A DNA stretch of 48,492 nucleotides from Candidatus Stoquefichus massiliensis AP9. Its GTDB lineage: Bacteria > Bacillota_I > Bacilli_A > Erysipelotrichales > Coprobacillaceae. Every line of letters begins with the position of its first letter. Positions within the stretch are counted from its first letter, which is position 1. Shown in pieces: positions 10,201-45,519 of this stretch. The notes beneath the pieces were generated by a model that made no database searches, was not told where the DNA came from, and saw only the letters and a program-made list of their open reading frames with translations. Location: positions 1 to 48,492 of the forward strand of contig NZ_HG005291.1 of assembly GCF_000455285.1 (NCBI RefSeq), written 5' to 3'. A program made the position numbers and the translations under genes.

Positions 10201-10425
10201 AAAAAATCGTTCCATCTAGGAACGATTATAATCGCGGTACCATCCTAATTCATAACAAACTCTTGTTATGCACTTAATTCACAGTAACGTTGTGTTGACG
10301 GCGATGATTAGTCGCACTCCAAGGTGAATTCAATAAATGCATTGTCAGAAAACTCACAGCAACTGTTTTCCTCTCTTTCACAATTTCTTTATCTACTTGT
10401 CCTCTTCATCGTGTTTACTGTTCAT
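10201..10425 (-). ncRNA. T-box leader, tRNA-Phe responsive
   Basis: The canonical T-box sequence AGGATGGTACCGCGAT is at 10231-10246 on the minus strand. It is followed by the terminator AATCGTTCC-TAGAT-GGAACGATT plus U-run (10201-10227). Upstream is a long Stem I. The segment GAATTCACC offers UUC (10326-10328) as the specifier codon, matching the downstream PheRS genes. Uncharged tRNA-Phe should favour antitermination and raise pheST expression. The left edge is set by the terminator and the right edge by the promoter, so Stem I limits are approximate. Confidence 0.92.
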
Positions 10426-23598: not shown

Positions 23599-23626
23599 AA
23601 AAAAAGAGTAGAAATTATCCTACTCT
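23599..23626 (-). terminator. Terminator behind the P-type ATPase-like gene
   Basis: AGAGTAG-GATAATTT-CTACTCT (23605-23626) followed by seven T on the minus strand. The stop codon is inside the stem. Confidence 0.75.
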
Positions 23627-25566
23627 AAAATAAATGTTGCAGAAATCATAACAAAAGCACTAATACAGAATTCTATAAAAACAACACTCCAAAGTGGTAA
23701 TCCTGTAAATGAAATCACAGTAATCAAGATAGCTAGTTTCATAAACAGTGTTAATGCGTTATTAGCCACAGCAATTGAACGCATCTTTCGTGCAATCAAG
23801 AATGTTTCATAAACTCTATTTAATTCTGAATCAATTAAAACAACATCACTATTTTCTACAACCTTAGAGTCAGCCAAACCACCTCTAGATATTCCAACAT
23901 AACTCTTTTGCAACAATTCAATATCTTTGAAACTATCTCCAATATAAACAATAGGTCCCACCAATGAATCCATTTTTTCTAATTTTTCTTCAACAGATAA
24001 ATCATTATATATTGTATATTGATCATTTTCTAAAGCTACTGGTCCATCATTAAAAATCACCAGCACTCTTCCCATATGTGATAATTTCTTAAATAATTCC
24101 AATTCTTCCTCAGTCACCTCTACACCATCAAATCGATCATAAACAATCGTTTGCGTTGCATTAATAGAATCCAATCCTAAAGAAGATTCAATAATAATTC
24201 CATTTTGAAACGCTTTAGCAAATCCAGCCAGCATTCCTAATGATGTTGATTGGTCACTAGATAAAGCTCCAGATAACAACAATAAAATAGCACCTACATG
24301 AATATATTGCCCATAATCCTTAAAGTTAATAATTGGTAAAACAATTCCTAACACCAATCCTAAAATAACCATAATAGGTGTATAGAACTTAGATAATATT
24401 TTAACATATTTTTCTATTTTAGATTCAAAAGACGGTGCCACACTTGCTATATTCATAAGTTCAATATAATTTGAACTTTCATAAGTTTCACTGACCTTAA
24501 CATAAATAGGATTTTGACCAGCATTCACATCACCACTATGTACAATACTACCTTTTTTCACTTTAACCAATTCATAAGTACTTGTATTAGAATAAGTATT
24601 CAATTCAGAAGGTCCTTTTGTAACCTTTCCAGGAATAGGTATTGTTTCTCCCGGTTTAATCACAAGCACATCTCCAACCTCTACTTCATACAATGAAACT
24701 TCTTCTTCCTGATTATCAGCAACCTTTATACCTGTTTCAGGCATTTCTACTGCCTTATCAATCTTTTCTAAAGAACGCTCAAGAACTTTATTTAATAATG
24801 GTGTTGTCACCTGATATAAAACAATAGCAATACACGTTTCTAAATAGGCCCCTGATACAATCCCCATAATCATAGCACATAATGCTAAAACATCTTCCTT
24901 AAAAAATTTCTTTTGCATGATATCTTTAAAAGCATTTTTTAATACTGATTCACCTAATAATAACATAGTTATAAACCATAAAATTGGTGTTATTTGACTA
25001 TGGTCTTTAGATGTAATAATTGCAAGTGCAATGACAACAAGAAAAATACCAATACGAATATATGTCTGTAAATATTTCTGATTAAAAACATCCTGAGATC
25101 GAATAGGCTTACGATGTTCAATAATATCTATTGAAGGATTGATTTTAAACAATTCCTTACGAATCAAACTTAATACATCACGCTGTGATGAAATTAATGT
25201 TAATAATTTATTTTGTGAATCATAGCGAACATCATGATATCTTGTATCTTCTTCAAGATTCTTAACCAAGACATCAATATCATCTTCTGTTATCATATTT
25301 CTAAACATAAAATAATGTTTTGTTTCTTTTTTTTGTGCAAAATCATATTGGCGTTTCACGCCATCAACAATTTCTTTAATTGTTAATTCTTTATTAATCC
25401 CATGAATAAGGCGTATTAAAGCATCAATATCAATACAGTTAAAAGTAATGCTAGCCTTATTAATTTTAATATGTGAAACCTGTTCTCTTGAATTTAATTC
25501 AAGGCTCAATTTATTCAATTCTTCAACTGATTGAATATTTGATATTTCAAATGTTTTTTTCGACAA
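23620..25566 (-). CDS. Catalytically degenerate P-type ATPase-like membrane protein
   Basis: A 648-residue protein with the plan of a heavy-metal (P1B) ATPase. Two HMA-like domains (about 3-60 and 83-150) lack CxxC; membrane helices, an A-domain (GDVLVIKPGETIPIPGKV, about 298-314), more helices and a P-domain follow. The key motifs are lost. TGES aligns with TSTY (328-331), CPC with SGA (432-434) and DKTGT with DRFDG (477-481, Asp kept). GDGxND becomes GDSFKD (543-548). Only about 65 residues separate the last two, far too few for an ATP-binding domain. The frame is intact, so it is not a fresh pseudogene. ATP-driven transport is unlikely; sensing or scaffolding is possible. The start is TTG at 25564-25566, with AAAGGGTG seven bases upstream. 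Confidence 0.85.
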   Translation of the reverse strand: MSKKTFEISNIQSVEELNKLSLELNSREQVSHIKINKASITFNCIDIDALIRLIHGINKELTIKEIVDGVKRQYDFAQKKETKHYFMFRNMITEDDIDVLVKNLEEDTRYHDVRYDSQNKLLTLISSQRDVLSLIRKELFKINPSIDIIEHRKPIRSQDVFNQKYLQTYIRIGIFLVVIALAIITSKDHSQITPILWFITMLLLGESVLKNAFKDIMQKKFFKEDVLALCAMIMGIVSGAYLETCIAIVLYQVTTPLLNKVLERSLEKIDKAVEMPETGIKVADNQEEEVSLYEVEVGDVLVIKPGETIPIPGKVTKGPSELNTYSNTSTYELVKVKKGSIVHSGDVNAGQNPIYVKVSETYESSNYIELMNIASVAPSFESKIEKYVKILSKFYTPIMVILGLVLGIVLPIINFKDYGQYIHVGAILLLLSGALSSDQSTSLGMLAGFAKAFQNGIIIESSLGLDSINATQTIVYDRFDGVEVTEEELELFKKLSHMGRVLVIFNDGPVALENDQYTIYNDLSVEEKLEKMDSLVGPIVYIGDSFKDIELLQKSYVGISRGGLADSKVVENSDVVLIDSELNRVYETFLIARKMRSIAVANNALTLFMKLAILITVISFTGLPLWSVVFIEFCISAFVMISATFILE

Positions 25567-25607
25567 AATGATCACCCTTTCTCAAGACATCATAACATAT
25601 TTTTTCA

Positions 25608-25649
25608 TAAAAACAAACCCATCTTCAAAAATCTATATATCTTATGGGT
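25608..25649 (-). terminator. Possible terminator behind the CxCxC gene
   Basis: ACCCAT (25644-25649) pairs with ATGGGT (25617-25622) on the minus strand across a 21-base loop, followed by TTGTTTTT. The long loop makes it weak. Confidence 0.4.
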
Positions 25650-25866
25650 GAACAATGAGTTTAAAATGCTCTTTAAATTCTGTTTCATTACAACTCAAAG
25701 CAAACTCTTCACCATATATTTTATAATAATTCACTTCTGTGTCACTTGTTCTAATCATACAAGGATAAACCTTTTTAAACACAAAAAGAGTCATTTCTTG
25801 CTTACCTATAATCATTGTCATTTCTTCAATGCAACGACAATAACAACGTTTTCCATCATTAGCCAT
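25642..25866 (-). CDS. Small cysteine-rich protein with CxCxC motif
   Basis: A 74-residue soluble protein not known to me. It has a CYCRC cluster at residues 8-12 and further Cys at 36 and 59; its second half is acidic and aromatic-rich. The start is fixed by AAGGAGGTG eight bases before ATG 25864-25866. It lies 75 bases upstream of the degenerate P-type ATPase gene on the same strand, with a weak hairpin between. The Cys cluster next to a relic metal pump invites the idea of metal or redox sensing, but this is a guess from proximity. Confidence 0.65.
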   Translation of the reverse strand: MANDGKRCYCRCIEEMTMIIGKQEMTLFVFKKVYPCMIRTSDTEVNYYKIYGEEFALSCNETEFKEHFKLIVHP

Positions 25867-25972
25867 AAGTGACACCTCCTTTTCTATATAGTATCACTTT
25901 TTTCAAGGACAAGAAAGGTAGATGAGATATTTCAACATATTAACTTTTTCACAAAATATATCGACGAATATT

Positions 25973-25995
25973 AAAAAGACCTTCAAAAAGGTCTT
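25973..25995 (-). terminator. Terminator of prfC
   Basis: AAGACCTT-TTTG-AAGGTCTT followed by TTT on the minus strand (25973-25995), starting within the prfC stop codon. Confidence 0.75.
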
Positions 25996-45285: not shown

Positions 45286-45513
45286 AAAAAAGTCATTCCA
45301 ATTAAGGAACGACTAATATCGCGGTACCATCCTCATTCATAATCTTTCAATTATGCACTCTGTAACATTAACGCTGTTTTGCGGGATAGTCTACTTATAT
45401 TTCTCCTATCCAGTTCATTGAGTGTTCCATACTTTCTTTGTTTCTCCTGCTTACACCATCCAGGAATCGCTAACAAACAAAATGAAAAATATGTTCTCAA
45501 ATCATCACTTGTT
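45286..45513 (-). ncRNA. T-box leader, tRNA-Asn responsive
   Basis: The T-box sequence AGGATGGTACCGCGAT is at 45318-45333 on the minus strand. The terminator AGTCGTTCC-TTAATT-GGAATGACT plus T-run is at 45286-45314. In the Stem I region GGAACACTC offers AAC (45424-45426) as specifier codon, fitting AsnRS. A second AAC at 45413-45415 is an alternative. The core is identical over 16 bases to the pheS T-box. Confidence 0.9.
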
Positions 45514-45519
45514 ATAATA

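Follow-up and report, generated by a model that had tools for sequence, protein, structure and literature searches.

The pseudo-ATPase gene and its locus

The window analysed here is the whole 48,492-nucleotide stretch from Candidatus Stoquefichus massiliensis AP9. On its minus strand, an open frame of 648 codons occupies positions 23620-25566, with a TTG start at 25566 and a stop codon at 23620-23622. The Shine-Dalgarno sequence AGAAAGGGTG lies directly 5' of the TTG, bearing out an initial description of this gene (the first-pass annotation) as an open 648-codon frame with a ribosome-binding site. The frame encodes a homologue of P1B-type ATPases, referred to below as the pseudo-ATPase. The features of the locus are as follows (aa, residues of the encoded protein).

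25976-25995, minus strand: terminator-like hairpin 3' of prfC, setting prfC apart from the small gene and the pseudo-ATPase
25888-25896, minus strand: extended -10-like element 5' of the small four-Cys gene
25642-25866, minus strand: gene for a four-Cys protein of 74 aa, neighbour of the pseudo-ATPase
25589-25597, minus strand: extended -10 promoter-like element TGTTATGAT 5' of the pseudo-ATPase, common to most orthologues inspected
23620-25566, minus strand: pseudo-P1B-ATPase gene (PF00122 and TIGR01512 matches)
25351-25566, minus strand: HMA-like domain 1 (aa 1-72), beta-alpha-beta-beta-alpha-beta, without CxxC (predicted structure, motif table)
25111-25329, minus strand: HMA-like domain 2 (aa 80-152), same fold, without CxxC (predicted structure, motif table)
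24751-25062, minus strand: transmembrane helices MA, MB, M1 and M2 (aa 169-272; predicted structure, P1B pump alignment)
24421-24750, minus strand: actuator (A) domain (aa 273-382; Pfam, alignment with P1B pumps, motif table)
24574-24588, minus strand: NTSTY (N327-TST-Y331) at the TGES position of the A-domain (alignment, motif table)
24265-24273, minus strand: SGA (aa 432-434) at the CPC metal-site position of M4 (alignment, motif table)
23821-24201, minus strand: P-domain (aa 456-582), N-domain excised (3a1e structural match, P-domain alignment)
24124-24138, minus strand: motif I, DRFDG for DKTGT, D477 kept (P-domain alignment, motif table)
24040-24051, minus strand: motif II, NDGP for TGDN (aa 506-509), invariant (P-domain alignment, motif table)
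23983-23985, minus strand: motif III Lys528, kept (P-domain alignment, motif table)
23923-23940, minus strand: motif IV, GDSFKD for GDGxND (aa 543-548), both Asp kept, Asn replaced by Lys
23623-23820, minus strand: transmembrane helices M5 and M6 (aa 583-648; predicted structure, alignment)
23605-23626, minus strand: terminator-like hairpin over the pseudo-ATPase stop codon

No riboswitch was found at the pseudo-ATPase locus. Two T-box leaders scoring above the Rfam gathering score are present in the window, both on the minus strand (10215-10418 and 45302-45514).

Family assignment and predicted structure

The sole Pfam match of the 648-aa protein was the A-domain family PF00122 (E=1.9e-17), and the best NCBIfam match was TIGR01512 (Cd-type P1B; E=4.6e-41), well under the family cut-off. 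Its nearest solved relative was the Zn pump 4umv (PDB ZntA match, E=1.3e-21). Sequence similarity to P1B pumps extends up to motif I and resumes past motif II. An AlphaFold2 model (pLDDT 78, pTM 0.63) comprised two beta-alpha-beta-beta-alpha-beta domains, an A-domain, a P-domain and membrane helices, a predicted P1B architecture without the N-domain. The A-domain sits between M2 and M3 and the P-domain between M4 and M5, which, together with the homologous sequence, identifies a P-type ATPase fold of the P1B lineage. Using Foldseek and VIA-align, the full model matched the P1B structure 7r0g (Z 26.3, 470 residues aligned, rmsd 6.7 A), and the P-domain matched the P part only of the CopA P/N domain 3a1e (Z 18.4, 140 residues, 2.6 A). 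The order of domains (two HMA-like domains, eight helices, A-domain and P-domain) is that of ZntA, CadA and CopA, and we conclude that the protein derives from a Zn/Cd-type P1B P-type ATPase. Alongside it, the window's genome has two ordinary P1B pumps in which CPC, DKTGT, TGES and GDGIND are intact; one resembles ZntA and the other CopA.

Motif losses and the retained P-domain core

The pseudo-ATPase differs from ZntA, CadA and CopA in the excision of the N-domain, in the absence of DKTGT, TGES, CPC and the HMA CxxC, and in a motif II that reads NDGP and a motif IV that reads GDxxKD. The substitutions listed by the first-pass annotation (DKTGT to DRFDG, CPC to SGA, TGES to TSTY and GDGxND to GDSFKD) were all found as described, and neither HMA-like domain has CxxC, again as described. 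The N-domain had been called shrunken; it is indeed reduced, but more than shrunken, having been cleanly excised. Based on residue numbers and the P-domain alignment, 29 residues separate motif I from motif II (D477 to N506), compared with 137-151 in 14 intact P1B pumps from the window's genome and related genomes. The N-domain HP dipeptide, a trait of functional P1B pumps, is absent from the pseudo-ATPases.

These losses are common to the orthologues, as seen in 39 distinct motif-bearing sequences, a set that includes near-duplicates (the same species twice) and represents about 33 genomes. Motif I, in the context YDR(F/I/Y)D, reads DRFDG in 36 sequences, DRIDD in two and DRYDG in one, keeping only the Asp of DKTGT. 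At the TGES position the orthologues have NTS(T/S/E)Y, INGxx, IDGxx or VDGDD (e.g. INGSD, IDGSD), and TGE(S) is missing. The CPC position is occupied by variable small residues (SGA, SGS, SSG, AGS, ACS and others) in place of the Cys/His ligands of M4. CxxC was absent from both HMA-like domains in all 39 sequences; the motif table has four CLLC matches, but their positions put them where the membrane part begins and not in an HMA domain.

The further statement that every catalytic motif had been lost does not hold. The phosphorylatable Asp (D477), the motif III Lys (K528) and the two motif IV Asp residues (D544 and D548) are invariant in 39/39 sequences, as are the NDGP and GDxxKD motifs in which the site is now written. 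With the N-domain removed from the 14 intact pumps, NDG aligns with TGD and GDSFKD with GDGIND. The catalytic pocket has been rewritten rather than erased. No other domain is as conserved as the P-domain, where 27/127 positions are invariant versus 0-7 in each other region and mean pairwise identity reaches 66%, versus 37-50% for the remaining folded parts. Conservation is lowest in the membrane part, whose blocks each have 0-2 invariant positions. In most lineages a purely inert scaffold would not be expected to keep the core of its P-domain active site so well, and part of the constraint on the protein could be structural only.

Distribution and gene neighbourhood

Full-length orthologues without internal stops were found in 32/43 Coprobacillaceae genomes at 30-86% identity, so chance resemblance is not at issue. 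They occur in Longibaculum, Massilimicrobiota, Thomasclavelia, Faecalibacillus and Candidatus Stoquefichus (the NCBI family Coprobacillaceae was looked up for two of these genera), and in nearly every genome examined they lie at the same locus. No homologue at this locus in Coprobacillaceae had intact DKTGT, CPC and TGES. Neither 273 other genomes of the order nor 395 genomes sampled from the class outside the Coprobacillaceae yielded the gene. Scanning 84,980 species genomes for two motifs gave 27 confirmed loci, all of which look like the Coprobacillaceae lineage, and none outside it.

The usual gene order is prfC, the small gene, the pseudo-ATPase, often glycerate kinase, an RluA-type synthase, infC, rpmI and rplT. 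Seven genomes free of the pseudo-ATPase were examined, and six of them lacked both the pseudo-ATPase and the small gene in an otherwise intact neighbourhood; the pseudo-ATPase is therefore dispensable for some members of the family. A functional tie to the translation neighbours (prfC, the RluA-type synthase and infC) was set aside on the same evidence, since their order persists in those six genomes, which points to a stable neighbourhood and not to a pathway. In a prfC tree, holders of the pseudo-ATPase fall on both sides of the midpoint, so that the family's ancestor probably had the gene already, and a clade of six genera has kept the neighbourhood but lacks both genes.

Two related genomes, G002 and G003, carry a more degenerate homologue near prfC.

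L054:6011-7738 and L055:1936-3714, minus strand: degenerate homologues of ~594 aa in G002/G003

In these the P-domain motifs are gone yet the frames are open, which suggests that a non-catalytic scaffold has been retained in those lineages, each represented by a single sequence. In another genome (G009) the pseudo-ATPase has been lost and the small four-Cys gene is kept at a different site. As a separate observation, at one locus (L039, in G034) of a single complete-looking assembly each of prfC, glycerate kinase and the aminopeptidase is broken into two frames, which suggests sequencing errors in that assembly.

Selection and phylogeny

Pairwise Nei-Gojobori estimates of dN/dS for the pseudo-ATPase ranged from 0.05 to 0.18 over 18 orthologue pairs, with the P-domain lowest or nearly so (mostly 0.04-0.13). 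Between the two species of the window's genus, dN/dS was 0.099 for the pseudo-ATPase, 0.113 for ZntA and 0.098 for CopA, with reference values of 0.048 for prfC and 0.101 for the RluA-type gene; dS in this pair is ~0.9, and the ratios are therefore approximate. The comparison with ZntA and CopA is nonetheless fair because all of these genes have the same divergence. A dN/dS equal to that of intact pumps of the same genomes, and well below 1, excludes decay. Neither of the two signs of a decaying pseudogene named by the first-pass annotation, close relatives with intact motifs or a dN/dS near 1, was seen. This homologue has lost catalytic residues and is under purifying selection, as expected of a pseudoenzyme. 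Phylogenetically, the pseudo proteins fall on one side of a 100/100 branch and 11 intact P1B pumps on the other; long branches block a finer placement of the clade among the P1B pumps.

The small four-Cys neighbour

The gene directly upstream of the pseudo-ATPase encodes a 74-aa protein in which Cys 10, 12, 36 and 59 are invariant in 32 distinct sequences. It is predicted to form a small SH3-like barrel (pLDDT 86), but no known fold matches it strongly (the best hit has Z 5.5 over 60 residues at 3.2 A), and no Pfam or NCBIfam family was found. The Cys pattern might, at a guess, provide a Zn site. Among 316 genomes of the order, this family was found only in Coprobacillaceae, where it nearly always co-occurs with the pseudo-ATPase: 33 of the 43 genomes have both genes, eight have neither, and one each has a single gene. 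We treat the co-occurrence as supportive, and not as more than that, because it mostly reflects one joint loss in the six-genera clade of the prfC tree. A two-gene operon was considered and set aside. Each gene has its own -10-like element and other genes intervene in a few genomes, and for these reasons co-transcription is not claimed.

The start codon of the small gene also varies. In the window's clade it is ATG or GTG (ATG at 25864-25866 in the window itself). In every genome inspected on the Thomasclavelia/Faecalibacillus side (L045-L053, L071-L086) it is ATT or ATC with a strong Shine-Dalgarno sequence, the only near alternative being a GTG inside that Shine-Dalgarno. Starts of the ATT/ATC type are known to be screened by IF3, the product of infC, and infC lies a few genes from the small gene.

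Proposed function and alternatives

The first-pass annotation had proposed a maintained, non-pumping P1B scaffold, and the common motif losses, the dN/dS values and the predicted architecture support it; the roles that it suggested, metal sensing or regulatory partner, would be putative. We consider it probable that the pseudo-ATPase is a maintained pseudo-pump that is not driven by ATP and acts as a membrane sensor or regulatory subunit. In an ancestor of the Coprobacillaceae, a Zn/Cd-type P1B ATPase would have shed its N-domain, its transport-site cysteines, the metal ligands of its HMA domains and the actuator Glu of TGES. What remained would be the membrane part with its eight helices, two HMA-like domains stripped of their metal ligands, the fold of the A-domain and a P-domain under strong constraint. 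From the known mechanism of P-type ATPases, no ATP-driven pumping cycle is expected once the N-domain, TGE and CPC are gone. The likeliest ligands of the invariant P-domain pocket (D477, N506, K528, D544 and D548) are still Mg2+ together with a phosphoryl group, or else a partner protein, and the state of the pocket could be relayed through the A-domain and the membrane helices for sensing or regulation.

Alternatively, the P-domain could be chemically active, as a capless HAD phosphotransferase or phosphatase in which Asp477 acts not on ATP but on a phosphoprotein substrate or a small phosphodonor. The four residues invariant in 39/39 sequences and the strong constraint on this domain argue for such activity, and in P-type ATPases inorganic phosphate can phosphorylate the P-domain with no nucleotide present. 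HAD phosphatases and phosphotransferases share the Rossmannoid P-domain, the nucleophile Asp, the Lys and the motif IV Asp residues; they differ in that the P-domain here is fused to a P1B membrane scaffold and lacks their Asp at +2. That residue is F, I or Y, with D-R-(F/I/Y)-D placing the Asp at +3. Furthermore, Asn takes the place of the motif II Thr, the Glu of TGES that serves in dephosphorylation is missing, and the pocket is lost in G002 and G003. We regard an active enzyme as unlikely.

It is more doubtful still that the protein remains a transporter that moves some other cargo, either passively or with energy from a gradient or a partner ATPase. In its favour, none of the eight helices has been lost, and in the window's clade the Zn-pump positions still carry the Lys of M5 and an acidic residue in M6, where Glu stands in for the Asp of Zn pumps. 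However, these two residues are not kept in the Thomasclavelia/Faecalibacillus clade, the CPC position varies among small residues, and it is the membrane part that is conserved least. Lastly, a decaying pseudogene, which the lost catalytic motifs and the further P-domain loss in two lineages might suggest, or a sequencing-error origin is excluded for the main group by 32 stop-free orthologues with pump-like dN/dS, and decay is also at odds with the conserved promoter-like elements and invariant new motifs.

Relation to known systems and significance

Pseudokinases and pseudoproteases are well known. To the best of our knowledge, conserved non-pumping P-type ATPases are rare, and the human case, TMEM94, is disputed. 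TMEM94 is a protein of the ER that was earlier named ERMA, and by design it is the nearest analogue of the pseudo-ATPase. By cryo-EM and an activity assay it is reported to have a P-type ATPase fold without TGES and no detectable ATPase activity (PMC12134183); another report supports TMEM94 as a Mg2+ ATPase (PMC13322241). Unlike the pseudo-ATPase, TMEM94 is eukaryotic, has ten helices, keeps an N-like domain and is not a P1B relative. No precedent for a bacterial pseudo-P-type ATPase was found in the searchable literature, from which most subscription papers are missing.

For the pseudo-pump proposed here, a bolder and quite tentative version is that excision of the N-domain created an ATP-independent membrane sensor, gated by phosphate or a partner and paired with the four-Cys SH3-like protein, the two forming a regulatory module ancestral to the family. 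Annotation pipelines may label such pseudo-pumps as metal pumps. This family-wide case in the Coprobacillaceae, in which a small gene goes together with a cleanly removed domain and a rewritten yet invariant active site, is a tractable system for asking what a P-type scaffold can do without ATP.
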